Source: Aphrocallistes beatrix (lineage: Eukaryota; Porifera; Hexactinellida; Sceptrulophora; Aphrocallistidae). Taken from it: DNA of 64,000 nucleotides. Positions 12,680 through 39,820 of the stretch are shown here, in pieces; positions within the stretch are counted from its first letter, which is position 1, and each line of letters opens with the position of its first letter. Both the position numbers and the translations under genes were made by a program. The stretch covers positions 2,728,001 to 2,792,000 of the forward strand of contig OY725497.1 of NCBI GenBank assembly GCA_963281255.1. Direction: 5' to 3'. The notes under the pieces were generated by a model. It made no database searches. It was not told where the DNA came from and saw nothing but the letters and a program-made list of their open reading frames with translations.

Positions 12680-15600
12680 TTATTTTAATAACAATCTGCT
12701 CTGAATTAAAATCGCCTGACCAAACAAGGCCCAAGGTTTGCTGGCAATGACACTATCCATCTGACGGATGCGGGTCAAAAAGCTGAAGGTAGTTGAGATC
12801 AGAAAAGAATCGGATTCATCACAGCTGTCTAACAACTGAGTAAAAAGAAGTAAGAATTCGTAGAGCTTCTTCATGATTGGCGTATGCGAGTTTTGGGTTT
12901 CATGTTTAGAAGTGTTAATGGCAATCGTGGCATGTGTTACATTGGATAGACATAATGAGAGATCTGAGTCTAAAGGTGTGTTGTTAGGAAGAAGTTTCAA
13001 ATGAGAAAAGAAGAGGGGACCAGATATACGAGACATCTCAGGACTGATTAGGCAGAGGATATACAATGTGTTGAATACTAGAGTGGAATGTTTCTCGAGT
13101 GTCGTAGTGGGAACTGAATCAGTTCGGTTCTGTAGCGCGGATTTCGCAACATTTAAAACTTCTAAGCACACTTGAGAACATCTAGAAATAGGGAGAGTTC
13201 GAATAATTGATAGCTGAAGAAGTATGTCTGAAAGAGGAGAAAGAGATATGCGAGTGAGTGGGGGTTGGTCTAGTAAGTATGTAATGCAAGGCCTAAGCCA
13301 AATATACTCATAGGAATGGATGAAGAGATGAACTCGAAGTAAAAGAAAGGCCTCGCCTTCTTGAGGAAGGAGTCTCTCTATGTCTTTGGGCATTAACTTA
13401 GATAAGCATTCGTCAAACAAATGGATGAACTCTGGCTTGTACAGATAGGAAGATGGAGAGCTGAGCATATATTCGAGTGATGTGATGAGGAGAGTTCTCT
13501 TGAATGCTCTCACAACTTCTGTGTCATGTTCTGTGAGCATAATGATGAGGCCTTTCAAAATACTAACAAAAAGTTGGGGATCTTGGAGTAGAGTTAGGAG
13601 GAGAGGTTTCAGAGCCAAGGGATCAGCAGACGAATCAAAAAGACACGATATATTATCTGTAACTACTTTTCTCGACTTAACTCCAATTCGATCGGGACAT
13701 ATGGCTGGATCGAGCACCCAACAGTGCAGGATATACCGAATTTGCTGGTGCTCCTGCTCCGTGGCCTGAGACTGTATCCTGAAGAGTAGCTTTAGGAGGG
13801 AGCTGTGGAGCCCATCATGTTCAGAGCTTCGTTGGAAACAAGTGATCAAGTTGGCCCATGGATAAGAGAGGAGTCGATTTCTTTTACTGGATAAGACATT
13901 GAATATCGTTTCGAACTTTAGTCGTTGGAATCCGTGGTGAATATTTCCTGAGAAAAGGGATTGCTCTATGAAAGAGAAGAGAGGTGTGAGGATGATGTTG
14001 TCGGGGAGGCGGGCGGATGAGCTGGGGGTACGAATCGTCTCGGAAAATAGAGAATAGCGACGATATATAAAGCCGAGCAAGCTAAGGGAATGGGAGAATA
14101 GGTTCTTCTTGTCTATTTTAGGAGAAATATAGTCCATGAGAGTCCGGACACCCTGCTGTAGCACCGAGTAGTGAGAGGGAGTGGGAGGGCAGGGATGTGC
14201 CTGATTGCCAAATATGGGCTGATAGGCTCCGAACAGAGCGAATATCCCCAGAAGCAGAGGAGAAATGCTCTCGAACTGATCAGGAGAGGTCTGCAACAAA
14301 GATCTGAGCTGAGATAAATATTTGTGAATTAGCAGCTGGGCGGCTACGTGTCCGGAAGTGGCGGTGCGAGAGAGGAGGATGCCAGCAGCTGAGTGCAGAC
14401 AGGAGTCGGGAGCTGCTTGCGAGGAGAGTTTGAGGAAAGTGCTGATAATCTGGTCGCACTGCTGGAGAGATATCTCTCGATGGGAATAAAGTCTGCAAGT
14501 CAGGACAGAACAGTTCATCGCTGCAATCTCAAAAGGTTGAGCGCGAGGGAACTCTTGAGCTGTGAGAGTCTCTAATGACTCCTGTTGTTTGCGCCGAATA
14601 AGAGTGACATCATCTCTGAGCAAGATATAAGCGAATTGGCCGGGATACCTTGCTTCTTGTATCTGTTGAGTACACCGCTTGCAAAGCTCAGCCAACTTAC
14701 GACTGGAAGGCCCTTCTTCCAGCAGATAAGTATCTTTAGTTTGTAGAATAGAGGAGAGAGTGAGTGCGTATAGGATGTCCAGCTGATGGGAGGAATGTTG
14801 GGGAGAATTCCACGCTCTGATGTATAAGTTTAGTGTATTCGCGCTGAAGTTCTGCTTCAAATGAGCTACCATCACTCCGCCTAGCACGCCGAGACCGAGA
14901 TAAGCAACTTCATTAACGGCAGACAAGTCTTGAGAGAAAGACAAAGTTTGAGCTGCAGGGAGAGGAGCGTATGAGTCTGTGGAGGGGAAGAGGTGCGTAG
15001 AGGCGGAGATTAGAGAGTTGATCAGAGCTTGTATGGAGGACTGCAGGCCGGATGAATGTAGCTCTCTAACATTGAGAGCAAGACCTATCAGGAGCCACAT
15101 GACCCCCTGGGGGTTGCGGGAACAGGTGAGGCGGTCTAGGATCGGGAAGAGAGACGCTACAGGAGAGGGGAGGGTAGTTGACGATATGACGTCAGACATA
15201 AATAGCTGCAGACCGTGAATGAACACCAGGAATGAGTTAATATCGGAAGGAGTTAAGGCAGAAGTGGGAGGTGTTGGGGAGAAGAGGAGAGAGCGAGAAA
15301 ACAGCTGGAGATACTGCTGGCACAGATTCTCAGGAGCTGGAGAGCTACCCCACAGCTCTCTACCCAGGAACAGGATAGAGACAGCTTGATGCGGAGACAG
15401 GGATAAGTCGGATATGTCTGTCCGGTGCGTGAGCTTAGGCAGATGAGAAGTGAGGAGCTTAGCAGTGCTTCTAAGGGCCGCTTCTCCTTTCTCCGCCTCC
15501 TGCTTGTGCTCTCTTGGAAAGACGGAAGACGAGGAGGAGAGTTCATCGTCCAACCAGTAAGAGAGGAGTCGCGAGAGAGCTGAGCTGCCCTCGAACTCTG

Positions 15601-17875
15601 AACGAGGTGTGAAATCTATTCGCAGAATGAATGAGCAGAGAGCCGCGCACTGGTTCCTGCTCCTCCTATCAGGAGACAAGTCCAGACTGTCAGGAAGGGA
15701 GAGCAGGGCTCGCAGTGAAGGAGAAAACGGCTCCAGAAGGACAATGTCCCGAGGGGAAGTCTCTGAGAGTGCCGAGAGTGCGGCCGCCTGTACCAACTCA
15801 TCGGAGTGCGCGAGCAGAGCGAGTTGCTGCTGGACACACTTACACAGAAGCTCCTGATCCCGCGGGAACTCCAGCTGAGTGTGAGAGAGGGAGAACAGCT
15901 GGGCTGCTCTGCGCGCGATGTGCGCTTCCCAGTGAGCAGGGGACCCTGACCCCACAGAGGCGAAGAGAAGACGCAGGGCGTGTGTGTATTCAGTAGCACC
16001 TGCTTCGACTAGGCTCACAAGAGCTGAGAGCCCGATACATGCAAACAGAGGGTCTCTGCACTCGACCAGGTCCGAGACCAGTGGGAGCATCTCCTCCCCG
16101 TGCACTGCGGCTCTGTCCCGACACACGTCCAGGATAGAGAGAGACCTCGCCAGGGACCAGTCCAGCGAGGAGGGAGTGCAGAAGTGAATGAGCTGCTTGA
16201 GGTGCGGGAATACGGCGTCGTGCCGCTTCCAGAGGGAGACCAGCGCTCTGAGGAGAGGGGGCAGCAGGGCGGGCGTGTCTGAGAGGGAGAGGAGAGAGCG
16301 AAGCAGCAGAAGGACACAGGCTGGGTGCGTGGAGAGGGAGGAGAGGGTGTGCAGGGTGAGGGCGGCCAGCTCAGGATATGGGCACCTGTCCATGGCTATC
16401 ATTAAGCAAGCGATGAGCGGCGGGGAGAGGGAGGGCGTGGAACGGACTAGCAGGGAGATTAATCGCAGGAGTTGTTGGATGGCTCTGGTGCTGGATGAGG
16501 CGCTAGTTGAGCTGTCAGACGTGAACTCCGTCAGGAGGGAGGAAGCAATACAAGAGAGGAGTGGAGGAGATTCATAGTCAACTGTAGCTTGAGACAAGAA
16601 TACGATCGTGTCTTCACACCAGGCGGTGAGTAGGGAGATGTGGCACAGAAGTAGGGATCGAGAGAGGAAGGAGAAGAGGCAGAGATCCCCCTGGTAGACT
16701 CCTGCGTCGCACGATATGGAACTAGCAGATTGAACCTGTTCGATGGTCCCGCTGCCTCTCTGCGACCTCCTCGGAGCAGAGAGCAGAGACTGGAGAAGGA
16801 GAGAATATCTCGAGGCGATGTCTGGTCTGATGCGCTGCAGGCCGAGCTGAGCACTGAGCAGAGGCAAGAGCAGCAACGATAGGGAATCCCGCGATGCGGC
16901 AGGCACGGAATCCTGCTGATAGGTCTTAACTACGAGTTCTACAATGTCTGTCAGCTGAGTGGCCAGCGGTGTGAGAAATGGGCTGAGGAGGGAGAGAGCA
17001 AGCCACGGGATAATGCTGATATTGAATAGAACATCGGGTTGTGAGGTGAACAGCCTCTTAAGCTTGTGTAAGAGGAGGGAGCAGGTGGTATGCACAGAGC
17101 AGTGAAGTAGGAAGTTGAGGGAGGACGAGATGACGTCGGAGAGGGGGGAAAGGGTTGGACAGGATAGAGAGAAATCTAACAGAGCTAGCAGGATATGGTC
17201 TGCATCGTCTGAGCAGACTACAGAAAGAATGAGGAGACGAAGTAAAGCGGTAGCTATGAGACCTGAGGAGGAGGGAGCTGATGCTACCTCCAAAAGAGTG
17301 GAGGTGAGAGAGGTTCTGTGGCGAGAGAGTCGCGGGTCTATCAGAGGGTGCAGGAGACAAGGCCAGAGCATGTGTAGAGCTGGCTGTGCATGCTGTGCGG
17401 TGAGGAGGGAGGAGATTGCACAGGTGACGGAGTCGGGGCAGTGAGAGAAGGCGAGTGCGAGAGGGTGCTGATGAGTGTGTAGATTGTACTCGGGGTGAGA
17501 ATGCTCCGAGAGCAGCAGGTCAGCCAGCAACGAGACCAGAGGAGTGGGGTGTGGACAGGTGGTTAACTTGGTTTGTAGCTGAGAGATAAGCTCCTGCGTT
17601 GCAACTAAGTCAGTCTCGTGCAAACGTCTCAGCCCCCAGCAACTAGATTCCACCGCTCCGAATTCAGTCGACTGGCAGCCTGACAGGAACAACTTGAGTG
17701 CGTGAGAGGGAGAAGGGCGAGAAGGGGGCGTTGCATCAGAGAGAGAAGAGACATCCTCGGAACTCACAGACGGATCTCTGAGCTGACGAGCAACTTCCTG
17801 AACTTGCGAGCTTAGAGAAGGAAATTGAAGAGCTGATAAGAACTGAGAACAAGAATAATGAAATCCTGATGCCAT
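12680..17875 (-). CDS. FOCAD: Focadhesin-like protein (copy A, complete)
   Basis: A single frame of 1,731 codons from the ATG at 17875; codons further upstream in frame lack an ATG. The protein is Leu/Ser-rich and reads as tandem helical (HEAT/ARM-like) repeats throughout. An N-terminal block, HTHQHPLALAFSHCPDS, resembles the HPHPL...HRPD block of vertebrate focadhesin. The length is close to the 1,801 aa of the human protein. Focadhesin is a focal-adhesion-associated protein that also stabilises the SKI complex of cytosolic RNA decay. The vertebrate gene has dozens of exons, so an intronless version is notable. The GC content and strong G/A strand bias contrast with the AT-rich surroundings. 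The assignment rests on length, architecture and this N-terminal block. Another HEAT-repeat protein is possible. Confidence 0.7.
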   Translation of the reverse strand: MASGFHYSCSQFLSALQFPSLSSQVQEVARQLRDPSVSSEDVSSLSDATPPSRPSPSHALKLFLSGCQSTEFGAVESSCWGLRRLHETDLVATQELISQLQTKLTTCPHPTPLVSLLADLLLSEHSHPEYNLHTHQHPLALAFSHCPDSVTCAISSLLTAQHAQPALHMLWPCLLHPLIDPRLSRHRTSLTSTLLEVASAPSSSGLIATALLRLLILSVVCSDDADHILLALLDFSLSCPTLSPLSDVISSSLNFLLHCSVHTTCSLLLHKLKRLFTSQPDVLFNISIIPWLALSLLSPFLTPLATQLTDIVELVVKTYQQDSVPAASRDSLSLLLLPLLSAQLGLQRIRPDIASRYSLLLQSLLSAPRRSQRGSGTIEQVQSASSISCDAGVYQGDLCLFSFLSRSLLLCHISLLTAWCEDTIVFLSQATVDYESPPLLSCIASSLLTEFTSDSSTSASSSTRAIQQLLRLISLLVRSTPSLSPPLIACLMIAMDRCPYPELAALTLHTLSSLSTHPACVLLLLRSLLSLSDTPALLPPLLRALVSLWKRHDAVFPHLKQLIHFCTPSSLDWSLARSLSILDVCRDRAAVHGEEMLPLVSDLVECRDPLFACIGLSALVSLVEAGATEYTHALRLLFASVGSGSPAHWEAHIARRAAQLFSLSHTQLEFPRDQELLCKCVQQQLALLAHSDELVQAAALSALSETSPRDIVLLEPFSPSLRALLSLPDSLDLSPDRRSRNQCAALCSFILRIDFTPRSEFEGSSALSRLLSYWLDDELSSSSSVFPREHKQEAEKGEAALRSTAKLLTSHLPKLTHRTDISDLSLSPHQAVSILFLGRELWGSSPAPENLCQQYLQLFSRSLLFSPTPPTSALTPSDINSFLVFIHGLQLFMSDVISSTTLPSPVASLFPILDRLTCSRNPQGVMWLLIGLALNVRELHSSGLQSSIQALINSLISASTHLFPSTDSYAPLPAAQTLSFSQDLSAVNEVAYLGLGVLGGVMVAHLKQNFSANTLNLYIRAWNSPQHSSHQLDILYALTLSSILQTKDTYLLEEGPSSRKLAELCKRCTQQIQEARYPGQFAYILLRDDVTLIRRKQQESLETLTAQEFPRAQPFEIAAMNCSVLTCRLYSHREISLQQCDQIISTFLKLSSQAAPDSCLHSAAGILLSRTATSGHVAAQLLIHKYLSQLRSLLQTSPDQFESISPLLLGIFALFGAYQPIFGNQAHPCPPTPSHYSVLQQGVRTLMDYISPKIDKKNLFSHSLSLLGFIYRRYSLFSETIRTPSSSARLPDNIILTPLFSFIEQSLFSGNIHHGFQRLKFETIFNVLSSKRNRLLSYPWANLITCFQRSSEHDGLHSSLLKLLFRIQSQATEQEHQQIRYILHCWVLDPAICPDRIGVKSRKVVTDNISCLFDSSADPLALKPLLLTLLQDPQLFVSILKGLIIMLTEHDTEVVRAFKRTLLITSLEYMLSSPSSYLYKPEFIHLFDECLSKLMPKDIERLLPQEGEAFLLLRVHLFIHSYEYIWLRPCITYLLDQPPLTRISLSPLSDILLQLSIIRTLPISRCSQVCLEVLNVAKSALQNRTDSVPTTTLEKHSTLVFNTLYILCLISPEMSRISGPLFFSHLKLLPNNTPLDSDLSLCLSNVTHATIAINTSKHETQNSHTPIMKKLYEFLLLFTQLLDSCDESDSFLISTTFSFLTRIRQMDSVIASKPWALFGQAILIQSRLLLK

Positions 17876-18510
17876 GTAAATAAGCAAAGCACCTACGTAA
17901 AGAAGTACATTAATTAAGTATCAGTAAATTAAATTTGTACCATTCTGAATAAAAAATCTACCCAAAGGGGAAAAAATGGAGGTCATGACATCGGTGACGC
18001 GACGACAAATTGATTATTTTGAACCAAAATTATATAAATGATAGGAATGAAAGCTTATAAATACTTCAGTCAATGAAAATCTAGCTAGAGGTTAATAAAA
18101 GTTGGAAATTACCAAAAAAGGTCTATTTTGGAGAAAAAAGCCTCACAAACTTTCAGATGCATTAAGTTAGGTATAATCACTATTAGTCAATGAAATCAAA
18201 GCCAACGCATTGCCATCGGAAGTTCATAAAAAGTGGTAAGGCTATTGCCAATATTATGTTAATCAAAAGTTGTAAGGCTCATCCACTTTATCATTTATAG
18301 AACTACAGGTAAACCTCTGAAATGCGACACTATTGGGAGGCTGCGGCAGTGCCGGATCTTCGTAGGTTGCCTCCATATAACAATAAATTATACAGTAAAT
18401 GACTTTAATTTGGCATAAAAGTTTAGAAGTAGTCACAAATACTTTTCTGGGTGCACTCCGACACCCTGAACTTAGCAAAAATCAATCTGGGAGCAGGGTA
18501 TGGATTATTT
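17876..18510. other. 5' flank of FOCAD copy A, repeated at 28720-29355
   Basis: Nearly identical to 28720-29355. From about 18307 it contains the pogo-like terminus CAGGTAAACCTCTGAAATGC, shared with 52456 and 53587. It ends in the MULE target site TGGATTATTT (18501-18510). Confidence 0.8.
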
Positions 18511-18607
18511 AAGAGTGTGAAGTTGGCAGCGAAAACAGCAGCAAATTCGAAGATTTCCTTTGGTGAAAAGATACCTTGCCAGTGGTACATTCACTATTTA
18601 CAATTAT

Positions 18608-19497
18608 TAACCAATTGAATCCTGGATGACCACATGATGACGTTGCAAAAAATGACAATTATCCGCTATTTTCTCAATAGGATCAAACTGAGCACGCTTT
18701 GAAGAGCTATTACTCGGTAACCAGCCTGCGGGGAAACATTTCCTTGTGGGTGGAGATACCTTACTTGCGGTATATCCCTTCATTCCATTTTTTAATCAAT
18801 TGGATCCCGGATGACCACATGATGACGTTGCAAAAAATGACAATTATCCGCTATTTTCTCAATAGGATCAAACTGAGCACGCTTTGAAGAGCTATTACTC
18901 GGTAACCAGCCTGCGGGGAAACATTTCCTTGTGGGTGGAGATACCTTACTTGCGGTATATCCCTTCATTCCATTTTTTAATCAATTGGATCCCGGATGAC
19001 CACATGATGACGTTGCAAAAAATGACAATTATCCGCTATTTTCTCAATAGGATCAAACTGAGCACGGTTTGAAGAGCTATTACTCGGTAACCAGCCTTGC
19101 GGGGAAACATTTCCTTGTGGGTGGAGATACCTTACTTGCGGTATATCTCTTCATTCCATTTTTTAATCAATTGGATCCCGGATGACCACATGATGACGTT
19201 GCAAAAAATGACAATTATCCGCTATTTTCTCAATAGGATCAAACTGAGCACGCTTTGAAGAGCTATTACTCGGTAACCAGCCTGCGGGGAAACATTTCCT
19301 TGTGGGTGGAGATACCTTACTTGCGGTATATCCCTTCATTCCATTTTTTAATCAATTGGATCCCGGATGACCACATGATGACGTTGCAAAAAATGACAAT
19401 TATCCGCTATTTTCTCAATAGGATCAAACTGAGCACGCTTTGAAGAGCTATTACTCGGTAACCAGCCTGCGGGGAAACATTTCCTTGTGGGTGGAGG
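18608..19497 (+). repeat. Left terminal array, five 185-bp repeats
   Basis: Units about 185 bp long (one has an extra base) recur at roughly 18627, 18808, 18994, 19180 and 19366. Each includes GACCACATGATGACGTTGCA and TGCGGGGAAACATTTCC. The units are almost identical, so the array is young or homogenised. A 62-codon frame recurs in each unit, but the inverted arrangement inside a TIR argues against coding. Confidence 0.95.
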
Positions 19498-20235
19498 TAC
19501 CTTCGAACCGACCCCACAGTATTCAGAATCAAATTAGCCCACAATACATTAACCTTATATAAAACGCACACTTCAGAAACAACTTTTTTACATAGGCTTT
19601 TTTGCGGCACTTATTCTTTGCGAATTCATCAATTACATGGAACTATTGATAACAAATTTTAATATAATGAAGTACCCCATTACCCTTCAAAAATCTTCAT
19701 ATTACTCCATTTGGGGTAATCACCCCTGGGTTGGGAACCCTTAGCTGGTATTGTATAATCGAGTATGTGCAACCTCCCCATCTTACTGTGGCGGGCCCTT
19801 TCTGTTTTGCTCTTTGCCAATCTACAAGAGATATTTCTCCTATTTTAGTAAAGTTTGATATTACTCCGGTGTATTTGTATTACTTCTTAAACTATTTGAA
19901 GTAGTCATCTACTTTTGAAGATAATTTTCTAACAAATCCTTAAAATGACAATGCTTGCAATATCATAGGTTAATTTCATCATACATTAATAACAATATCA
20001 TCATGTTGTCATTCAATTGTGGTCAAGCTAAATAAAAATAGATACTATGTATTTTGATGCTTTTATACGACTCATTTCAATAAGTATTTGTTACATATAT
20101 TACAATACATTCAAATAACTTGATGGTATATATATAATTGGAATCTATTCATTAACATAATTACTTCAAGTGTTCATTTCTTCCGATCCTTTTGCATTTT
20201 CTTGTCTGAATAAAATTTATTTCGACTTTCTCTAA

Positions 20236-20308
20236 ATGGGAAATAATCTTGATGCAATGCTGCTGCTCTTGTGTGGTGATGTAGAGCTTAACCCAGGCCC
20301 TTTAGCAC
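20236..20308 (+). CDS. Exon 1: 2A (StopGo) peptide leader of the transposase
   Basis: The ATG at 20236 opens a short hydrophobic leader rich in Leu, ending LLCGDVELNPGP-LA. GDVELNPGP matches the D(V/I)ExNPGP consensus of 2A peptides, which make the ribosome skip the Gly-Pro bond and release two products. A donor (CAC|GTAAGT at 20309) and an acceptor (TTTAG at 20374-20378) define a 70-bp intron. Splicing leaves one base of phase, which fits exactly with the transposase frame at 20379. Some 2A peptides at the N terminus of non-LTR retrotransposon proteins and of NLR-type proteins also act as exclusion or signal sequences. That role is only an analogy here. Confidence 0.85.
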
Positions 20309-20378
20309 GTAAGTTAGATCATTTCAGAATTGTCATTTAAGTATATTCCATATCTTAATCATTTAATATTCACTTTAG

Positions 20379-22722
20379 TTGCTAAGGGAAGTTTAATAGG
20401 CAAAAGCATTCCTGAAAAATTTGAACAAGCATTAGCAAGACTAAACATTCCATGGCCTGAAATCCGATCCAAGCTCAAAACATGCAATTGGCGCGATTCT
20501 ATGTCGATATGGGGTTCATTAGCTAAAATGATACTCAACAGGAATAGACCAGCATTGAGGAAAAAAATAATGCATTTTTGGAAAAATAATTCAAAAATTC
20601 AGGACAAAGTAACCTCGCTAAAAGATGCGGTAGACTTCCCCTATTGTGAGGAGATCAAATTAATTGTTAGTTTCGACAGATCTAATTTGGGTTCTCGTTT
20701 ATTTTCTACAATTCAACAATCACAAGCAGAAGAAACATATTTTAATTCACAATTATTACAACAAAGCCCTCTATCATCAAACATTATCAGTGATGAATCT
20801 GAAATTAGCATATGTGATGCTCATATTTTGGATAAGAGCTCAGAACAAACCAACCAATTTTTTCTCACCCCTCAAGAGTGGAATTGCATCAAACCAAAGG
20901 TTAGCTGTAACAAATTAAGTAATTGGACCTATGTTTTTAACCAGAAACTCAGCGTTTTTTATCCATATTGTGTTATCAAATTTCTCTATCACAGAATTAA
21001 TAGTGACTCGAAATTTCGCAATTCTCCCTTCTTATTAGCTCAAGCGGTTTGCAAGTTCAAAAATTGCATGAAATTTTCACTTTGGATAGCTGAAACGCCT
21101 AATTTCGAAGGTTTTGATAGTTTAACTGTGAACATTAACGCCCATGGCTTTCTATCAGATGAACATTTTGATCACAAAACTGCATACAGTCGTAAAATAT
21201 CAGGTGAACAGCGAGAAAATTTAGGCAGAGAGATATTAAGTAGTTCAGCCATTAATTATCACTATGATCTTTTCAAGAAGTCGGATAATTTAGAAGCTGC
21301 CCAACATGGAAATATGAGTCAATTACATTCACAATCCATCCTGAGGAAAATAAAGTCACAACATTTAGCAAAGGAGCGGTTCGATAATGACATGTGGCAG
21401 GATATTGTAATCACCAAAAAAACATATGATAGTGCTATAAAAGGGAAAGTTATAGATGGATGTATACAATTGATATCAAGGTATCCCATTGTCATACACA
21501 TGTATACCGAAGAACAGATTCTTGTCTTAAAATCGATAGCAAAGTCTAATTTAATCTTGCATTTAGATGCAACTGGATCTGTAGTTAGAAAGATAGACCA
21601 GTTTCAAAAGAAATTTTTATATTATGCTTTAACTTTACAACATCCACAAATGAAAATAAGTCCAATCCCCCTTGCTGAGATGCTAAGTAGCAACCATACT
21701 AATGTTGAAATTACATATTTTTTACACAAATGGATTTATGATGTAAAATTGATATTGAAGCACGATATCTGCCCTACTCAAATCGAAGTCGATTTTAGTT
21801 GGGCAATGTTACATAGTATCTCCAAAGTTTTTAATAAAGAACAACTTGAAGAATACCTAAATGCTAGTTGGAATCTAATCCATGCCTCCAAATCTGATTT
21901 TGATAAAGATAGAAGTGTACTTCACATACTATGTTCGGCACATCTATTACACCGAATTAGTTATAAACTTGAACGAAACATCAAACCGACTAAACATATG
22001 AAAAGAATGATCATGTATGTAATGGCTCGACTAATATCATGCACAAGTTTCAACGACTTCGAACAACTTTTCATTGCTCTCTGTATGTTGTGTTTAGCTA
22101 AAAAAACATGTCCAGAAATCAATCCTTATGTTAGCAAAATTGAAAATACAATAAATTTTAGAGAAGAAGAAGTAAACTATGAATTTGATTTCATTGATGA
22201 AATCGACGAAGAACTCCAAAATGAATTTGGAGATGGAAATACTTATAAAAATAAGTCACCTTTCGGAAAATATTTCGATAATCTGTTGAAGAACTGTCAA
22301 AATATGATTGATAAATTAGATAGAAAACATAATACAACATATTTTGAAGAAACGAAACATACTTCCTACCTGCTTTGCCTACTTTTCTCGTCACATACTA
22401 TATGCCAATTTGCCCTCTATGGAGCAGTTTGATACTAGGGCCAGTCATCTCACCAGGAGAGGCTAATGTACGACATAGTAATGCAATTGTCGAGAGTTGG
22501 ATGAAAATTGTTAAAGCAAATATCCTCAATGGCGAGACTAAACTAAGAGCAGGGGATTTCTTAAGAAAAATGCGTGAAGGCCTTGAAGGGAGGATTAGTG
22601 CTTTTACTTTTGCATTTGAGCCTCTGAGTTGCAAAATCTTCAAGAAAAGAAAGGATCAAGATACTTCATTAGTTGAAGAGACGTGGCAAAAACGCAAGGG
22701 AAACAAAAGGACATATTTTTAA
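20379..22722 (+). pseudogene. MULE-type transposase, exon 2 (one frameshift)
   Basis: The transposase body runs open from 20379, and its frame stops at 22432. Comparison with the second copy (34790-34860, 35459-35677) shows one base missing near 22376. Past that point the homologous frame continues to a stop at 22720-22722. Candidate catalytic Asp residues lie in LHLDATGSVV and IEVDFSWAML. The first is preceded by hydrophobic residues, as in MULE D1, and the second resembles the MULE D2 (TDFE-like) block. A C-x-x-H (CSAHLLHR) follows. The C-terminal part contains NAIVESWMKI and a basic tail. I identify the superfamily from these motifs, the TIRs and the TSD, not from a search. If the frameshift is a sequencing error the gene could be intact except for the stop. 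Confidence 0.75.
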
Positions 22723-23610
22723 AAAAGTATCTCTCCAAATTTACTTCGTTTTAATGCAAAAAGGAATAGCGAGAGTCTCAAACTAATATCTGAAAAATTC
22801 GAGCCTATTCCTAGCCTGAGCAAAAAAAGGTGTATTAAGCAAAGAAAAAGCAATAAAAGTAAAACAATAAAGAGAAGTCAGAAACAAATCATTGGTGCCA
22901 TAAAAACTGTTAAGGGCATTAATACAGAATTATCAAGCGATGACAGTATCTTTTTTGATAACGATCCCAAAAGCATTACATTTTACAATCACGGGAAATT
23001 TGTCCCAGTCGATCAAATTTGGCAAAAAGAAAAATGTAAGATATTTAAATTATCTTATGTTAAAGGCGGAATTTATTGTAATGAATCCAAAGAACCAAAT
23101 TTAGAAATTAGAGAATTGAGGCCTTCTAAAGAAAAAAGAATTTCTCCTGATGGGAATTGTCTTTTCAGTTCACTCTCTTATGTTATCACTGGTAGCGATC
23201 ATCTTCACAAAGAAATTAGAGAAATGTTAGTAGAAAATATGAAAGGGGATTTTAGAGAAATATGCAATAATTATTGTTACTCGAACAAAGATCTATTATC
23301 AAAAGGGCAGTGTCATTTCATAGAACAATACATTAAAGCAAGCATGATTGATCGTGTTGGCTCCTGGGGGACGGATATGGAACTATTCTTAGCTGCACAA
23401 TTGTTAAAAACAGACATTTTTGTATATCGAGATTACTTACGCAGTTGGAACAAATTTTCTGGCTATGGATTTATAAATAAGCACAGTACTCATGCACAGA
23501 CAGAAAAGAGAATCTACATCAGACTATTCAGGAATCATTTCCAACCAGTCATCAAAGTAAATTCGAAAGATCAAGTAGAGTCAGATACAGACTCTGAGAT
23601 TATAGAATAA
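22723..23610 (+). CDS. OTU-domain cysteine protease, C-terminal part of transposon polyprotein
   Basis: The frame is the same as that of the transposase C terminus and is separated from it by the single TAA at 22720-22722; otherwise it is open for 296 codons. The first part is a basic, low-complexity linker, then ITFYNHGKFVPVDQIWQKEK, also present in the second copy. The OTU domain runs from about 23140. The catalytic Cys is in DGNCLFSSL, a central GSWGTDMELFLAAQLL helix follows, and the catalytic His is in RNHFQPV. OTU proteases cleave ubiquitin-type conjugates, and OTU or Ulp1 domains are known in some MULEs and Helitrons. Both catalytic residues are present. The stop codon ends 4 bases before a MITE (23614). 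Confidence 0.85.
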   Translation, partial: KSISPNLLRFNAKRNSESLKLISEKFEPIPSLSKKRCIKQRKSNKSKTIKRSQKQIIGAIKTVKGINTELSSDDSIFFDNDPKSITFYNHGKFVPVDQIWQKEKCKIFKLSYVKGGIYCNESKEPNLEIRELRPSKEKRISPDGNCLFSSLSYVITGSDHLHKEIREMLVENMKGDFREICNNYCYSNKDLLSKGQCHFIEQYIKASMIDRVGSWGTDMELFLAAQLLKTDIFVYRDYLRSWNKFSGYGFINKHSTHAQTEKRIYIRLFRNHFQPVIKVNSKDQVESDTDSEIIE

Positions 23611-23613
23611 CAC

Positions 23614-24175
23614 CAGGGTTACCATACGTCCTTTTTTAGAAAGGACAGTCCTTCTTTTTTGCTACCTGTCCTTTTTAAAATATGCTGTCCTTTTTGTCCT
23701 TTTTTTTCGCTTTTTGTCCTTATTGTCCTTTTTTTTCGCTTTTTGTCCTTTTTGTTCTTATAAACTCATTCTTGTCCTTTTACGTTTTACTTGTAGATTA
23801 TATACTAGAATGGCTATCATAAATGATTTAGCATATTTTGGAAATCGAAACCCTAGGTGAGAATTTACATTTATGTCCGCAGCTTCACAAAAAATTCAAA
23901 CCGATATCTCTTAAACTCAGGTCTGTACACCACATACGGCCGGACACCAGCACTCATTTTAGAACTGTGCTACTATAACATTATATTGGATCAGAGATCC
24001 AATATAATGATATACCTAGAAGCACACTAAAAACATTCAAAACAATTCCTTGGGGTGCTAGCACCCAGACAGCCATTATTGTCGTTCGATACGCTCTCTC
24101 TTTACATCGTTTTTCTAAATCTTCGATCTATCCCTGAGTGTCCTTTTTTTTATGAATGAGGAGATGGCAACCCTG
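23614..24175. mobile_element. hAT-type MITE inside the MULE
   Basis: The ends are CAGGGTTACCATACGTCC and, on the opposite strand, CAGGGTTGCCATCTCC. The exact 8-bp TSD AATAACAC lies at 23606-23613 and 24176-24183. The inside has repeated GTCCTTTTT words. The TSD overlaps the OTU stop codon. Related words (GCGGGAC, GGTTGGCAAGTATGCC) occur at 58230-58460. Confidence 0.85.
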
Positions 24176-24297
24176 AATAACACAGATCCAAATCATTGTA
24201 GGCAAAGAGTTTGTATGCAAAATAGTGATAGTAGGATCTTAGTAGTACCAGTATTTAGAAAAATTTAGAAGTAAATAATATGTTTAGGTATCTTTAA

Positions 24298-24951
24298 GGT
24301 ATGCTCAGTTTGATCCTATTGAGAAAATAGCAGATAACTGTCATTTTTTGCAACGTCATCATGTGGTCATCCGGGATCCAATTGATTAAAAAATGGAATG
24401 AAGGGATATACCGCAAGTAAGGTATCTCCACCCACAAGGAAATGTTTCCCCGCAGGCTGGTTAACGAGTAATAGCTCTTCAAAGCGTGCTCAGTTTGGTC
24501 CTATTGAGAAAATAGCGGATAATTGTCATTTTTTGCAACGTCATCATGTGGTCATCCGGGATCCAATTGATTAAAAAAATGGAATAAAGAGATATACCGC
24601 AAGTAAGGTATCTTCACCCACAAGGAAATGTTTCCCCGCAGGCTGGTTACCGAGTAATAGCTCTTCAAAGCGTGCTCAGTTTGGTCTTATTGAGAAAATA
24701 GCAGATAACTGTCATTTTTTGCAACGTCATCATGTGGTCATCCGGGATCCAATTGATTAAAAAATGGAATAAAGAGATATACCGCAAGTAAGGTACCTCC
24801 ACCCACAAGGAAATGTTTCCCCGCAGGCTGGTTACCGAGTAATAGCTCTTCAAAGCGTGCTCAGTTTGGTCCTATTGAGAAAATAGCGGATAATTGTCAT
24901 TTTTTGCAACGTCATCATGTGGTCATCCGGGATTCAATTGGTTAATAATTG
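24298..24951 (-). repeat. Right terminal array, four 185-bp repeats (inverted)
   Basis: The same 185-bp unit as the left array, in opposite orientation. TGCAACGTCATCATGTGGTC recurs at about 24352, 24537, 24722 and 24908. The units vary slightly more than those of the left array. Confidence 0.95.
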
Positions 24952-25084
24952 TAAAGAGTGAATGTACCACTGGCAAGGTATCTTTACACCAAAGGAAATC
25001 TTCCTTCGACCTTTGGGCGGTAAATTATGCTATGTTGCATGGTGCTCGAATTTGCTGCTGTTTTCGCTGCCAACTTCACACTCG

Positions 25085-25267
25085 TGGATTATTTTGACCC
25101 AAAATAACCTTACTATCAAAACACGCTTAATATTTATATATAAATATGTATACAAGCGCGCTTCGATTGCATGCGCTGCGTGGCTGGCGGACACTTTTCT
25201 ATCCCCCGGAGGCGCCCTTTGGGCGCCTGGGCTCACATTGATCCTACATGGCGAAATACCTTAGGCT
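25085..25267. other. MULE right flank, identical to 29346-29528
   Basis: From the TSD onward this matches 29346-29528 almost base for base, including a TCCTTACT-family MITE variant (from about 25109) with its GC-rich tail, until the gap. Confidence 0.85.
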
Positions 25268-25467
25268 NNNNNNNNNNNNNNNNNNNNNNNNNNNNNNNNN
25301 NNNNNNNNNNNNNNNNNNNNNNNNNNNNNNNNNNNNNNNNNNNNNNNNNNNNNNNNNNNNNNNNNNNNNNNNNNNNNNNNNNNNNNNNNNNNNNNNNNNN
25401 NNNNNNNNNNNNNNNNNNNNNNNNNNNNNNNNNNNNNNNNNNNNNNNNNNNNNNNNNNNNNNNNNNN
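25268..25467. other. Assembly gap, 200 N
   Basis: Exactly 200 Ns, which is a typical placeholder length. The sequence to its right restarts in the middle of the focadhesin-like frame. Confidence 1.
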
Positions 25468-28400
25468 GATATAAGCGAATTGGCCGGGATACCTTGCTTC
25501 TTGTATCTGTTGAGTACACCGCTTGCAAAGCTCAGCCAACTTACGACTGGAAGGCCCTTCTTCCAGCAGATAAGTATCTTTAGTTTGTAGAATAGAGGAG
25601 AGAGTGAGTGCGTATAGGATGTCCAGCTGATGGGAGGAATGTTGGGGAGAATTCCACGCTCTGATGTATAAGTTTAGTGTATTCGCGCTGAAGTTCTGCT
25701 TCAAATGAGCTACCATCACTCCGCCTAGCACGCCGAGACCGAGATAAGCAACTTCATTAACGGCAGACAAGTCTTGAGAGAAAGACAAAGTTTGAGCTGC
25801 AGGGAGAGGAGCGTATGAGTCTGTGGAGGGGAAGAGGTGCGTAGAGGCGGAGATTAGAGAGTTGATCAGAGCTTGTATGGAGGACTGCAGGCCGGATGAA
25901 TGTAGCTCTCTAACATTGAGAGCAAGACCTATCAGGAGCCACATGACCCCCTGGGGGTTGCGGGAACAGGTGAGGCGGTCTAGGATCGGGAAGAGAGACG
26001 CTACAGGAGAGGGGAGGGTAGTTGACGATATGACGTCAGACATAAATAGCTGCAGACCGTGAATGAACACCAGGAATGAGTTAATATCGGAAGGAGTTAA
26101 GGCAGAAGTGGGAGGTATTGGGGAGAAGAGGAGAGAGCGAGAAAACAGCTGGAGATACTGCTGGCACAGATTCTCAGGAGCTGGAGAGCTACCCCACAGC
26201 TCTCTACCCAGGAACAGGATAGAGACAGCTTGATGCGGAGACAGGGATAAGTCGGATATGTCTGTCCGGTGCGTGAGCTTAGGCAGATGAGAAGTGAGGA
26301 GCTTAGCAGTGCTTCTAAGGGCCGCTTCTCCTTTCTCCGCCTCCTGCTTGTGCTCTCTTGGAAAGACGGAAGACGAGGAGGAGAGTTCATCGTCCAACCA
26401 GTAAGAGAGGAGTCGCGAGAGAGCTGAGCTGCCCTCGAACTCTGAACGAGGTGTGAAATCTATTCGCAGAATGAATGAGCAGAGAGCCGCGCACTGGTTC
26501 CTGCTCCTCCTATCAGGAGACAAGTCCAGACTGTCAGGAAGGGAGAGCAGGGCTCGCAGTGAAGGAGAAAACGGCTCCAGAAGGACAATGTCCCGAGGGG
26601 AAGTCTCTGAGAGTGCCGAGAGTGCGGCCGCCTGTACCAACTCATCGGAGTGCGCGAGCAGAGCGAGTTGCTGCTGGACACACTTACACAGAAGCTCCTG
26701 ATCCCGCGCGAACTCCAGCTGAGTGTGAGAGAGGGAGAACAGCTGGGCGGCTCTGCGCGCGATGTGCGCTTCCCAGTGAGCAGGGGACCCTGACCCCACA
26801 GAGGCGAAGAGAAGACGCAGGGCGTGTGTGTATTCAGTAGCACCTGCTTCGACTAGGCTCACAAGAGCTGAGAGCCCGATACATGCAAACAGAGGGTCTC
26901 TGCACTCGACCAGGTCCGAGACCAGTGGGAGCATCTCCTCCCCGTGCACTGCGGCTCTGTCCCGACACACGTCCAGGATAGAGAGAGACCTCGCCAGGGA
27001 CCAGTCCAGCGAGGAGGGAGTGCAGAAGTGAATGAGCTGCTTGAGGTGCGGGAATACGGCGTCGTGCCGCTTCCAGAGGGAGACCAGCGCTCTGAGGAGA
27101 GGGGGCAGCAGGGCGGGCGTGTCTGAGAGGGAGAGGAGAGAGCGAAGCAGCAGAAGGACACAGGCTGGGTGCGTGGAGAGGGAGGAGAGGGTGTGCAGGG
27201 TGAGGGCGGCCAGCTCAGGATATGGGCACCTGTCCATGGCTATCATTAAGCAAGCGATGAGCGGCGGGGAGAGGGAGGGCGTGGAACGGACTAGCAGGGA
27301 GATTAATCGCAGGAGTTGTTGGATGGCTCTGGTGCTGGATGAGGCGCTAGTTGAGCTGTCAGACGTGAACTCCGTCAGGAGGGAGGAAGCGATACAAGAG
27401 AGGAGTGGAGGAGATTCATAGTCAACTGTAGCTTGAGACAAGAATACGATCGTGTCTTCACACCAGGCGGTGAGTAGGGAGATGTGGCACAGAAGTAGGA
27501 ATCGAGAGAGGAAGGAGAAGAGGCAGAGATCCCCCTGGTAGACTCCTGCGTCGCACGATATGGAACTGGCAGATTGAACCTGTTCGATGGTCCCGCTGCC
27601 TCTCTGCGACCTCCTCGGAGCAGAGAGCAGAGACTGGAGGAGGAGAGAATATCTCGAGGCGATGTCTGGTCTGATGCGCTGCAGGCCGAGCTGAGCACTG
27701 AGCAGAGGCAAGAGCAGCAACGATAGGGAATCCCGCGATGCGGCAGGCACGGAATCCTGCTGATAGGTCTTAACTACGAGTTCTGCAATGTCTGTCAGCT
27801 GAGTGGCCAGCGGTGTGAGAAATGGGCTGAGGAGGGAGAGAGCAAGCCACGGGATAATGCTGATATTGAATAGAACATCGGGTTGTGAGGTGAACAGCCT
27901 CTTAAGCTTGTGCAAGAGGAGGGAGCAGGTGGTATGCACAGAGCAGTGAAGTAGGAAGTTGAGGGAGGACGAGATGACGTCGGAGAGGGGGGAAAGGGTT
28001 GGACAGGATAGAGAGAAATCTAACAGAGCTAGCAGGATATGGTCTGCATCGTCTGAGCAGACTACAGAAAGAATGAGGAGACGAAGTAAAGCGGTAGCTA
28101 TGAGACCTGAGGAGGAGGGAGCTGATGCTACCTCCAAAAGAGTGGAGGTGAGAGAGGTTCTGTGGCGAGAGAGTCGCGGGTCTATCAGAGGGTGCAGGAG
28201 ACAAGGCCAGAGCATGTGTAGAGCTGGCTGTGCATGCTGTGCGGTGAGGAGGGAGGAGATTGCACAGGTGACGGAGTCGGGGCAGTGAGAGAAGGCGAGT
28301 GCGAGAGGGTGCTGATGAGTGTGTAGATTGTACTCGGGGTGAGAATGCTCCGAGAGCAGCAGGTCAGCCAGCAACGAGACCAGAGGAGTGGGGTGTGGAC

Positions 28401-28719
28401 AGGTGGTTAACTTGGTTTGTAGCTGAGAGATAAGCTCCTGCGTTGCAACTAAGTCAGTCTCGTGCAAACGTCTCAGCCCCCAGCAACTAGATTCCACCGC
28501 TCCGAATTCAGTCGACTGGCAGCCTGACAGGAACAACTTGAGTGCGTGAGAGGGAGAAGGGCGAGAAGGGGGCGTTGCATCAGAGAGAGAAGCGACATCC
28601 TCGGAACTCACAGACGGATCTCTGAGCTGACGAGCAACTTCCTGAACTTGCGAGCTTAGAGAAGTAAATTGAAGAGCTGATAAGAACTGAGAACAAGAAT
28701 AATGAAATCCTGATGCCAT
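25468..28719 (-). CDS. FOCAD: Focadhesin-like protein, copy B, truncated by the gap
   Basis: The N-terminal 1,080 or so codons of the same protein, starting at ATG 28719 and running into the gap at 25467. It corresponds to 14622-17875 of copy A. I see only about half a dozen amino-acid differences (for example FPSLSS/FTSLSS, DIVELV/DIAELV, RSLLLC/RFLLLC, FPRDQ/FARDQ), with the frame preserved throughout. The 5' flank is also near-identical but lacks the MULE. The simplest reading is the second allele of one locus, joined in tandem by the assembler. A real tandem duplication is not excluded. Confidence 0.8.
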
Positions 28720-29528
28720 GTAAATAAGCAAAGCACCTACGTAAAGAAGTACATTAATTAAGTATCAGTAAATTAAATTTGTACCATTCTGAATAAAAAA
28801 TCTACCCAAAGGGGAAAAAATGGAGGTCATGACATCGGTGACGCGACGACAAATTGATTATTTTGAACCAAAATTATATAAATGATAGGAATGAAAGCTT
28901 ATAAATACTTCAGTCAGTGAAAATCTAGCTAGAGGTTAATAAAAGTTTGAAATTACCAAAAAAGGTCTATTTTGGAGAAAAAAGCCCACAAACTTGTTCA
29001 GATGCATTAAGTTAGGTATAATCACTATTAGTCAATGAAATCAAAGCCAACGCATTGCCATCGGAAGTTCATAAAAAGTGGTAAGGCTATTGCCAATATT
29101 ATGTTAATCAAAAGTTGTAAGGCTCATCCACTTTATCATTTATAGAACTACAGGTAAACCTCTGAAATGCGACACTATTGGGAGGCTGCGGCAGTGCCGG
29201 ATCTTCGTAGGTTGCCTCCATATAACAATAAATTATACAGTAAATGACTTTAATTTGGCATAAAAGTTTAGAAGTAGTCACGAATACTTTTCTGGGTGCA
29301 CTCCGACACCCTGAACTTAGCAAAAATCAATCTGGGAGCAGGGTATGGATTATTTTGACCCAAAATAACCTTACTATCAAAACACGCTTAATATTTATAT
29401 ATAAATATGTATACAAGCGCGCTTCGATTGCTTGCGCTGCGTGGCTGGCGGACACTTTTCTATCCCCCGGAGGCGCCCTTTGGGCGCCTGGGCTCACATT
29501 GATCCTACATGGCGAAATACCTTAGGCT
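28720..29528. repeat. Second copy of the FOCAD 5' flank, without the MULE
   Basis: Matches 17876-18510 joined to 25085-25267. The empty target site TGGATTATTT is at 29346-29355. A few substitutions and a small indel (near 28986) distinguish the copies. Confidence 0.9.
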
Positions 29529-33249: not shown

Positions 33250-34860
33250 TGTGATGTAGTTAGTTAAAATTGGTATTGGTGATAAACTTATGGTTCCTGG
33301 ACGCCAAAAGCTGATCAAACAAAACATTTTTTTCTCAATCCTGAAGAGTGGGATTGTATTAAACCGAAAACTGGGTGTAACAAATTGGTTCCTAATTGGA
33401 CATATACTTTTAACCAGAAACTCTCGTGTTTATTCCCTTACTGTGTCATCAAATTTTTATATCACCGAATTAATAGCTATTCTGAATCTCGGAATTGTCC
33501 TTTTATAACAGCACAAGCGATGTGTAAATTTAAAAGATGCTTCAAATTTTCAATTCGGATTGAAGAAATGCCTAAAGGAAAATCTGAATACGTATCTGTG
33601 GAAGTATTAGCTGAAGGTAATCTTTCAAATGAACATTTTGATCATATAACTGCACATAGTCGCAATGTATCAGGTGATCAACGAGAAGAGTTAGGAAAAA
33701 AGGTAGCTTGCAGTTCTGCAATAAATTATCATTATGATCTCTTCAAAAATTCACAAAGTTTAACAGTTGCAAAGCATGGAAATTTGAATGAATTACATTC
33801 ACAAGAAGTTTTACGGAAGGTAAAGTCACAATATATGGAAAAGCAGCGATTCACTGATGATGTGTGGCAGGATATAATTGTAACCAAGAAATCTTATGAC
33901 AGTACTATTAAAGGAAAAGTTCTAAACGGCTATATTCAAATGACATCGAGATATCCACTTATAATTGTGAGGAACAATTAGTTTTTTTGAAGTTAATAGA
34001 AAAGTCCAAGTTGAAGTTGCATTTAGATGCAACAGGTTCTGTTGTCAGAAAGCTAGATCGTGATGAGAAGAATTTCTTATACTATGCTCTAACCTTACAA
34101 CATCCAATAGCGAAAATAAGCCCAATTCCCCTTGCTGAGATGCTAACAAACGAACAAACAAATGTTGAGATTACACATTTTTTAAACAGATGGTACTACG
34201 GTGTGAGAAGGATATTGAACCGGGATATTTGCCCTTCTCAAGTCGAAGTAGATTTCAGTTGGGCATTGTTGCATAGCATTTGCAAGATTTTTAACCGACA
34301 ACACCAGAAGATTATCTTAATACTTGTTGGCAGTACATACAAACCTCTCAAACCGAAAAGTATTGGGATAAAAGTATACTTCATATATGTTCAGCTCATT
34401 TAATGAACCGTATTAGTTATAAACTTGAACATACGATGAAAATCAAGAAATCTATAAAAAGAATATTTATGTTTTTAATGGCAAGATTGGTAGCATGTAC
34501 AAATATTGGTGAATTCGAGCAACTTTTCACTGCGCTATGTATGGTCTGTTTGGCAAAAAGGATGTACCCAGAGATTCAACAATATATTTCTAAAATTGAG
34601 AAAGCTATCAAGTCTAAAGAAGAAGATATCGATGAGGACTTTGATTATATCGCTGAATTGGATGAAGAACTCACTAATGATGCAATAGTTATAAAAGTAA
34701 ATCGCCATTTGGGAGATATTTTAACAGTGTGTTAATTAAATGTCAAGAACGAATATATCATTTAGAAATACTGCATAAAACAACTTCTCTTGAAGAAAAT
34801 GATAATTATTTCTTACCACGATTACCAACTTTTTTAGCAACACATTATATCCCAATATGC

Positions 34861-35450
34861 CAGTGTTCCGCAAACCCCCATTTGCCGGCCGCATGCGGCC
34901 GGAAAATTTCTTCAAAACAAAAAAAGTTTTACAGAATATGTATTTTCGAATTGAAGTTTTCTGTAGTAGAATACACATCAACCCAAACTAAAAAATATTG
35001 CTCGAATTGTCCTTTCAATGTTTGGCTCGACTTATAATTGTGAGAGAACTTTTTCTGTATTAGGTACAAGTAATATAAAAAACAAGCACAGAAATAGACT
35101 GTCAAACAATCACACTTCAGAATTAGTGAAGGCTGCAGTCACAAATTTTGAAACTGAATATGGGAAAATCATCTCATCTGTTCAAGTCCAGGTTTCCCAT
35201 AATCGTAATTAATGTATTGTTTGATTCCAAAAAGGCAGTTTTGTACTAATTCTCCACTGTCTTAGAATATTATTTGTATGTAGTTTATAGATTAGAGATT
35301 AAAATCAACGTAATACATTCTGTATGCTATAAAGGCACTCTATCCTAATCAGGAACAAATTAAAGGAAATTTGCCAATTTTTAATGTGGCCGGCACAGCT
35401 GTGGGTTAAATAAATTTGGCCTCGAGATTTTAAAAGGTTGCGGAACACTG
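34861..35450 (+). mobile_element. hAT deletion derivative with exact 8-bp TSD
   Basis: The termini are CAGTGTTCCGCAA and GGTTGCGGAACACTG, and the TSD CAATATGC is at 34853-34860 and 35451-35458. The inside (35018-35212) encodes the end of a hAT transposase, the dimerisation region with FGSTYNCERTFSVL and RNRLSNNH. The rest of the transposase is gone. Confidence 0.92.
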
Positions 35451-36320
35451 CAATATGCCCTCTTTGGACCAGTTTGATTTTAGGTCCAGTTATGGCACCA
35501 AATGAAAGTGACGTAAGATCTAGCAATGCCATTGTTGAAAACTGGATGCGAATTCTGAAAATCAATATTCTTCAAAATCAAACTAAATTGAGGCCAGGCG
35601 ATTTCTTGAGAAAAATACGTGAAGGATTGGAAGGAAGAATTAGAGCATTTGGATTTGCATTTGAGCCTCTCAGCTGAGCTCCAAGATACTGAAAACTAAA
35701 GTTCCTCGTAAAATTAAGGATAATAGATTAGCAGAAGAAATCTGGCAAAGGCGAAAGAAAAATAAAACTACATATTTTATGACAACTAATTCTCAAATGA
35801 CTAGTATGCTTACGCAGAATATAACAAATAGTGAAAAACATGGTAGCAAATCCACTAAAAAGGCCGAAATTCAAAAATCAGTAGGTAAGGCTTTTGGTAA
35901 TAAACGAAATCCAATTATTGAAAAGCAGACAAAATCGATAATTCTTAAAGACCAGTCGTCATTAAAGAAGATGTATACCTCAGCACCTGCTATCGTAAGT
36001 TGTATCAATAGTGAAGTTTCAGGTGATTCTTCTCCACTTGATATTACAATGCAAGAAGTTACGTATTATGATCACGGTGACTTCTCACCAGTAAATCAAA
36101 TTTGGCAGAGAGAAAAGTGTAAATTCTTACAGCTAACATATGTGTGTGGTGTTCTTTACGAGAATTAATCAGCGGATAAAAACTCGCAAATTCGCGAGTT
36201 AAGGCCTTCGAAAGAAAAAAGGATGGAAATTGTTTATTCCGGTCAATCTCATATATTATAACTGGGAGCGATCATTATCACCAAGAAATCAGAGAAGTAT
36301 TGGTTCAAAATATGAAGGGG

Positions 36321-36843: not shown

Positions 36844-38120
36844 ATGGCAACAGCATTTGGAAACTTGATTATACCTCCTCTTCTAAAGAACAATACGATA
36901 ACGGAATGGGAGCACTTCTTTAGAGCAGGGGTGACGACTCTATTAATTCAGGAAGGAGGAGAAAAGTTGGCGATTAGGTTGTTGCCTGCGTACATTTGTA
37001 GAAGACCTGCGGAACTTGAGGTTGTTCGCGAGGTGGTTGAAGAGGCGAAGACATTTGACGAGGCTTTCGAAATACTCCGAACTTTGGACCCACCGAAGGA
37101 CAAGACCCACGCCATGGTATCGCTTTGTAGGCTAGACTGGGCCCCTGGGGGTTTAGTTGATGATTTTTCTACGAGTTAAAAATGCTAGCAAGTCGTGCTC
37201 AAGCCCCTTTGAATATGGTATGTACCTTACTTCCTGCCCAATTACCTGCCCCACTTCAAGGACCCATCAAAAATTGGTTGGCTACAAGAGAAGAAATCGG
37301 TCCCAAAGAAGCTCGTAAATTCATTGATTTTGTTCGACAGTCTCTGAGCGAAAAAGGAGTCCCGCTGGACAAAGGAAATCGGGACTTTTCACGCGTTTGT
37401 GTGTTAAAAGAGGAAGCACTAGAGAGCCAAATAAACGAAAAGAAGCAGAGAGAGGCATCTAGTTGTAACACTGAAACTCTGGATATTTCCGAGCATCCAG
37501 AGAAGAATATACAAACGTCTAAAGATAACGTAAATACGATCCGCTACCAAAACCAAAGAAAAGGATTTAGGCGACAGACTCGAGGGACGGACGAGAAGAG
37601 TCCGCTTGTTATGAACTCACATAAATCGGGATGCTTTATATGTGGAATCCAAGGGCATTTTGCTCGTTCATACCCTGATCAATTTTGTCAGCAATGTGGG
37701 AAGAAGGGCCACCACTGGAGAGACTGCAGAACTGGTAAGTGGGTGTTATTAGCAAATACGACTGCATCTCAGCGTGCTAGTGAGTCAGGAGTTGTTGTGC
37801 GAATTACTCTGAACGATGTTCCAATCGTAGCTTTGCTTGACCCGGGTGCACAGCCAAGCATAGTGGATAAGGGAACTCTAATTTCCATTGGAGTTGAATT
37901 TCTCTCTTATCCAGGACATATTCATGGTGTAGGTTCGACCCCGGTAGCGACTCTAGGAAGAGTTCAACTTGTTATTAGCATTGGTCGGGATTATTCTATT
38001 AAACATATATTCCTCATTATCGATACCAACGATTCTACAATTATCTTAGGGAGAGATTTCTTGTCACGATTTGATTCAACTGAATTCGATTGGGGGAATC
38101 ATAGAATCCGGGAACAGTAG
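36844..38120 (+). pseudogene. gypsy gag and protease, frameshifted
   Basis: The Gag capsid region is 36844-37179, and a second frame (37182-38120) continues it. Two zinc knuckles are present. The first has Tyr where its last Cys should be (CFICGIQGHFARSY), while the second (CQQCGKKGHHWRDC) is complete. The retropepsin has ALLDPGAQP where D-S/T-G-A is expected, and a normal IILGRDFL. The altered active-site triplet suggests a dead protease. Confidence 0.85.
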
Positions 38121-38187
38121 CTCCCTACTGAGGTAACTCTTCATGGAGGACCAATATTAGCACGTGCAATGGTGCTAAAAAGCGTGG

Positions 38188-39793: not shown

Positions 39794-39820
39794 ACTGGTC
39801 AATTCAAGAAGTACTCTCAG

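Follow-up and report, generated by a model that had tools for sequence, protein, structure and literature searches.

What is a ribosome-skipping 2A (StopGo) peptide doing at the head of a DNA transposase? The question is raised by a 64,000-nucleotide stretch of the genome of the hexactinellid sponge Aphrocallistes beatrix (assembly GCA_963281255.1, contig OY725497.1, positions 2,728,001 to 2,792,000), hereafter the window, whose own numbering is used throughout. On the reading favoured here, to which a probability of about 65% is given, the locus is a Mutator-like transposon with a small first exon, and the leader encoded by that exon ends in a StopGo sequence that separates it from the transposase. 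A sequence-only reading of this DNA had proposed that a 2A leader is joined by splicing to a DNA transposase. At the sequence level that proposal is now supported by recurrence of the motif in the genome, by splice donors and acceptors, by the identity of exon 1 among copies, and by the ratio of nonsynonymous to synonymous substitution rates (dN/dS) in the exon that follows.

The leader exon and its 2A core

The ATG-started leader, its terminal CGDVELNPGP and a GTAAGT donor directly after exon 1 all lie where the sequence-only reading had placed them, and the 70-bp intron at 20309-20378 indeed returns the transposase frame exactly. The features of this part of the element are as follows.

20236..20308, plus strand: exon 1, an ATG-started leader (MGNNLDAMLLLLCGDVELNPGPLA) plus one base, read from the sequence and the same in 6/6 family-A copies
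20278..20301, plus strand: 2A/StopGo core DVELNPGP, the skip being expected after Gly (20296-20298) and before Pro (20299-20301)
20309..20378, plus strand: putative phase-1 intron of 70 bp, GTAAGT...TTTAG, placed by donor, acceptor and frame
20379..22432, plus strand: exon 2, transposase, open until it meets a stop at 22430-22432, past a frame change near 22350-22360

DVELNPGP is the only NPGP match in the six frames of the window, and together with five other variants in the genome it has the StopGo/2A core (D/G/C/N)(V/I)ExNPGP. The core is preceded by LLLLCG in family A, to which the window copy belongs, and by LLSG, IICG, LQCG, LSCG, LICG or YICG in other lineages. By eye, this leucine-rich run with a G before the D resembles motifs 2 and 6 in the available part of PMC12846837, where motif 6 is active in assay. 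The last 2A residue is almost exclusively Pro in viruses; Met and Trp at that place are about 90% active or more in assays, and Ser is not among the residues reported there. Splicing of exon 1 to exon 2 is predicted from the signals listed above, and ribosome skipping at the Gly-Pro bond is predicted from the motif.

Recurrence across the host genome

The host genome (100.5 Mb, 28 contigs) was searched on both strands with a degenerate DNA pattern for D(V/I)ExNPGP. Exact coding sites numbered 30, against 0 for the reversed pattern and about 0.2 per 100 Mb expected by chance over both strands (our own arithmetic), in keeping with the earlier estimate that a chance origin is very improbable. These strict sites are not independent and fall into six lineages: A, with DVELNPGP (6 sites, the window among them); B, with DIELNPGP (10); C, with DVEVNPGP (9); F, with DIEANPGP (2); and two lineages named here by their motifs, DIESNPGP (2) and DVETNPGP (1). 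Among the six lineages and the related family D, Glu, Asn, Pro, Gly and the last Pro are written with differing codons; the Ser of D is the one change that is not synonymous.

A phase-1 GT donor stands two to three codons past the final Pro at 30/30 sites, where the local GT frequency would provide a GT about 10% of the time. A script found 29 of these donors; at L035 it placed the donor at codon 1, and reading shows GTAACT at codon 3. By tblastn, with 1.5 kb covered, this transposase lies downstream on the same strand within 1.5 kb at 25 of the 30 sites. Within that distance downstream there was no transposase match for L008, L015, L018 or L035, and the sole match for L022 is upstream on the opposite strand. 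L022 and L035 align with family B, and L008 and L018 appear by eye to be degraded remnants resembling the transposase N terminus.

Since the strict search itself demanded the NPGP motif, looser patterns were also run. They returned 41 and 42 places (one in the reversed control each time), of which 15 were distinct sites beyond the strict 30. Apart from the leader-like sites considered below, these included GDFETNPGL without a clear donor, one chance-like match, and a pattern holding a stop at C15:328187. All such pattern searches detect an uninterrupted motif only, and a 2A split by an intron would escape them. In a survey that began from the transposase, the best 30 of 72 matches were examined for a 2A; within the locus, 13 had E-x-N-x-GP, six had NPGS and 11 had neither, although for three of the 11 (L046, L047 and L066) a strict site lies 1.6-3.4 kb further upstream.

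The transposase families

A tree was made from 24 proteins with a midpoint root and long-branched outgroups, with the DIESNPGP and DVETNPGP lineages left out. In this tree families A, B, C, F, D and E form one 15-row clade with support 93/100, one of these values being below the program's mark. A neighbouring seven-row group joins families G, I and J with Oopsacas minuta, and family G has an in-frame Met start at the homologous place. A single gain of the 2A exon by the ancestor of one transposase clade, with later weakening or loss in D and E, is the simplest reading and the probable one. Undisrupted frames of 1041-1095 aa ending in OTU domains are present in L059 (family C), L048 (D) and L055 (E). 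In the family-C copy L011/L059, an ATG-started 2A leader and an undisrupted 1044-aa open reading frame (ORF) carrying the OTU domain occur together. The family-E copies L054-L058 (on C4, C6 and C15, and two on C7) are identical over 4944 bp and have a 1041-aa ORF; their sequences suggest very recent activity of this family.

Evidence bearing on whether the leader is part of the protein

Variation among the six family-A copies is unevenly placed, with variable columns at 0/73 in exon 1, 6/71 in the intron, 11/100 in the 5' flank (100 bp) and 5/118 at the start of exon 2. Fisher's test gives p 0.013 for exon 1 against the intron, and 0.002 for exon 1 against the intron and 100-bp 5' flank together (0.004 once L019, which has a rearranged distal flank, is set aside); the p values are indicative only, because the copies are related by descent. 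A similar contrast between leader and intron is not evident in family C (3/54 against 8/147 columns, with two copies dropped and gap columns counted).

Exon 2 provides a separate line of evidence. Over the 29 codons ahead of the first Met of A's exon 2, dN/dS between A and B is about 0.14 (one comparison, with synonymous divergence near saturation). This supports purifying selection on exon 2 before its first Met in A, and translation would therefore have to begin further upstream. In families A, B, C, D and F there are phase-1 acceptors that open into the homologous N terminus; several AGs fit in each case and the choice among them is ours. The same acceptor script returned none for L013, L020, L008, L018 and L015, and only later ones for L031.

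The transposon and its insertion site

The limits of the element and its repeats are as follows.

18501..18510, no strand: left copy of the target site duplication, 10 bp, TGGATTATTT; the empty site at 29346-29355 has a single copy
25085..25094, no strand: right copy of the target site duplication, from the same empty-site comparison
18511..25084, plus strand: the whole transposon, between the target duplications; the duplicate at 25468-29528, 99.5-99.6% identical, lacks it
18513..18550, plus strand: outer left terminal inverted repeat, 38 bp, perfect
25046..25083, minus strand: outer right terminal inverted repeat, 38 bp, perfect
18607..19503, plus strand: inner left inverted repeat, 4.8 tandem 185-bp units
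24302..24945, minus strand: inner right inverted repeat, 3.5 tandem 185-bp units

The window contains its own empty site, in that 14624-18510 joined to 25085-25267 corresponds to 25468-29528 at 99.5-99.6% identity. Since TGGATTATTT is single at 29346-29355 and doubled around the element, the element spans 18511-25084 with a 10-bp duplication and was inserted after the two stretches had parted. The duplicate of about 4 kb adjoins a gap of 200 N (25268-25467) and may be the other haplotype, in which case two haplotypes were joined in the assembly.

Mutator-like elements (MULEs) have target duplications of 8-11 bp according to the available part of PMC6446971, and the 10 bp seen here, in one element only, falls within that range. 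Terminal inverted repeats, which in MULEs are often long, are present as the perfect 38-bp arms and the inverse 185-bp arrays.

The transposase and its OTU domain

Two lesions break the transposase of the window copy: the frame changes near 22350-22360, and a stop lies near 22722. Its predicted parts are as follows.

21566..21568, plus strand: predicted catalytic Asp 1 (LHLDATGS), near-invariant in alignment A1 and inside the fold-matched region
21791..21793, plus strand: predicted catalytic Asp 2 (EVDFSW), from the A1 consensus and our own assignment
22492..22494, plus strand: predicted catalytic Glu (SNAIVESW), in the shifted frame, from the A1 consensus and our own assignment
22723..23610, plus strand: C-terminal part, OTU-like cysteine protease domain (PF02338, E 3.7e-10), in the transposase frame in L059, L048 and L055

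The predicted fold of the transposase is nearest to ISCth4, a member of IS256 and a Mutator relative, and the model points to a DDE RNase H domain of the IS256/MULE type. At E<=1 neither the window protein nor the 17 proteins aligned with it in A1 matched the Pfam MULE profile; a distant relative, P0027, gave a sub-threshold match to PF10551 (E 0.034). A profile search of solved structures gave nothing at E<=1, and a homologue search with residues 1-60 of the predicted spliced protein gave 30 candidates, none at E<=10. Assignment of the element to the MULEs, as in the sequence-only reading, is thus supported by the 10-bp target duplication, the long inverted repeats and the ISCth4-like fold, and has no Pfam MULE match behind it.

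Location of the 2A inside a retrotransposon was considered and rejected. Scans of two ORFs of the element and of three intact relatives gave no reverse transcriptase or endonuclease domain, and the gypsy-like ORFs of the window (37164-40726) lie outside the element. Those scans likewise gave no NACHT domain, such as follows the 2A in sea urchin NLR proteins. A second broken relative of the transposase occupies 33286-36168, with an abrupt start near 33286 and no 2A motif nearby.

What the 2A exon may do

Taken as a mechanism, the favoured reading would run as follows. The mRNA would be spliced at the phase-1 intron, and a ribosome reaching NPG|P would release the 21-residue leader and then make a free transposase-OTU protein with Pro as its first residue. 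Molecules that escaped skipping would retain the leader, a hydrophobic one in some lineages, and could be steered away from the nucleus; if they were, the 2A would govern how much of the transposase is active. That release of the leader frees the transposase is suggested by analogy, and removal of a hydrophobic leader, control of dosage and a dual fate of the product are all possible purposes. A bolder version, in which StopGo serves this clade of animal DNA transposons as a built-in switch of both dosage and targeting, with skipped transposase going to the nucleus and the unskipped fusion to membranes, is tentative and rather doubtful. Were it true, D, with its final Pro changed, and E, with the exon lost, would be alternative regulatory states and a natural test series.

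A number of observations weigh against the favoured reading. Family D departs from the core, reading DIETNPGS in 7/7 loci read (L048-L051, L060, L063 and L080), and two of these NPGS loci, L048 and L050, have undisrupted 1095-aa frames. In the about 3.0 kb upstream of family E (five 100% identical copies) there is neither a 2A nor a convincing candidate for the leader exon, despite which a phase-1 acceptor is found at the same place. Because D and E lack an intact 2A, it is not indispensable for transposition in the clade. The leader frame or its start has been lost in several B and C copies, and 12 further leader-like sites are without NPGP: the seven of family D and five others (L073 and L076-L079), of which two are B-type (NPGS and NPDP) and three read NPRP, NPEP and NPE-stop. 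NPGP is thereby kept in 30/42 leader-like sites. L015 is the only one of the 30 strict sites not tied to a transposase family. In family A, the difference in variability between exon 1 and the start of exon 2 does not reach significance (p 0.16), and family B has no contrast between leader and intron (8/64 against 13/119 columns, with one copy dropped). Finally, exon 2 of B, C, D and F has a Met close to its start, from which internal initiation would be possible.

Some of these points would also suit a leader that is real and translated but serves mainly as a signal or leader peptide, its skipping being weak or incidental, as in the recoding signals of sea urchin NLR proteins. The C and DIESNPGP leaders are strongly hydrophobic, with maximum 10-residue Kyte-Doolittle means of 3.0 and 3.5 compared with 3.2 for the sea urchin leader, and family D retains its leader yet reads NPGS. 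An N-terminal 2A can, moreover, be signal and recoder both, according to the part of Roulston et al. (PMC4981915) available. This explanation is nonetheless judged unlikely, given that lower values were obtained for the leaders of A (2.2), B (2.0), F (1.4) and D (0.9), that secretion offers a nuclear transposase no obvious gain, and that exact NPGP, needless for a plain signal, has been held in six lineages through synonymous change. Less probable again is a transposase that starts at an internal Met of exon 2, which would leave the 2A exon as a short upstream ORF or a non-coding remnant. The Met codons of B, C, D and F would allow such a start and the database gene models P0001 and P0007 adopt one, but in A and E roughly the first 40 codons of exon 2 are free of Met, the coding-conserved stretch of A lies ahead of its first Met, and donor phase is equal at 30/30 sites.

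The remaining alternative, a functionless inserted viral fragment or chance motif, is very improbable. 2A motifs are typical of RNA viruses in the available part of PMC12846837, and some copies have lost NPGP. Both the place of the 2A and the phase of the donor are equal in diverged lineages and go with the transposase, so a viral insertion is unlikely, and 25/30 sites precede this transposase. The chance motif taken by itself was rejected, as the window holds a sole NPGP and the genome 30 sites compared with none for the reversed control.

Relation to known systems

Odon et al. reportedly described 2A sequences in APE-type non-long terminal repeat (non-LTR) retrotransposons in 2013. The likeness to the present case is a 2A encoded by an animal transposable element. 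The window element differs in being a DDE DNA transposon with a target duplication and inverted repeats, and in having its 2A on a predicted exon of its own. In the 2A signals of Strongylocentrotus purpuratus NLR proteins, as given in the accessible portion of PMC4981915, the resemblance lies in a short leader at the extreme N terminus with a hydrophobic run and a D(V/I)ExNPGP end; leader lengths to the end of the 2A are 26 residues in sea urchin, 22 in A and 36 in C. Downstream of its predicted 2A, the sponge protein is a transposase-OTU and not an NLR. Viral StopGo/2A peptides (Li et al. 2026, PMC12846837, in the part available) likewise have a leucine-rich run and (S/C)G followed by D(V/I)ExNPGP, whereas the 21-residue leader begins a DNA transposon protein and stands at no polyprotein junction. 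With the Mutator-like elements, including the Foldback and Rehavkus types (PMC6446971 and PMC3169594, both in part), the element shares its 10-bp duplication, long composite inverted repeats and predicted IS256/ISCth4-like DDE fold. It is unlike known members in having no detectable Pfam MULE match, a C-terminal OTU domain and a 2A exon.

Cellular use of 2A is called rare in the available text of PMC12846837, and that of a 2024 review (PMC11512398) places 2A in viruses, non-LTR retrotransposons and some NLR proteins, the same users that the sequence-only reading had named. That reading knew of no 2A on a MULE transposase; likewise, no report of a 2A in a DNA transposon was found in the literature searched, judged mostly from listings and excluding the Rao 2025 survey (Cell Reports). 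A recurrent, predicted-spliced 2A leader exon on cut-and-paste transposons would add one more class of mobile element to the users of StopGo. With intact, point-changed and 2A-less lineages in one clade, a ready comparison for the role of an N-terminal 2A is at hand.

Other features of the window

Gypsy-like retroelement fragments at 37164-40726 contain aspartyl protease, RNase H and integrase core sequences. On the minus strand, a 638-aa ORF at 53634-55550 has a predicted RlaP/nucleotidyltransferase domain (PF10127), and an ORF at 60022-61576 contains many near-identical repeats around PRSPNSSSFQI. The window also holds a MAP kinase gene that points to a probable glass-sponge host, its product having 62% identity over 96% to that of Oopsacas minuta and 47% over 56% to that of Ephydatia muelleri.
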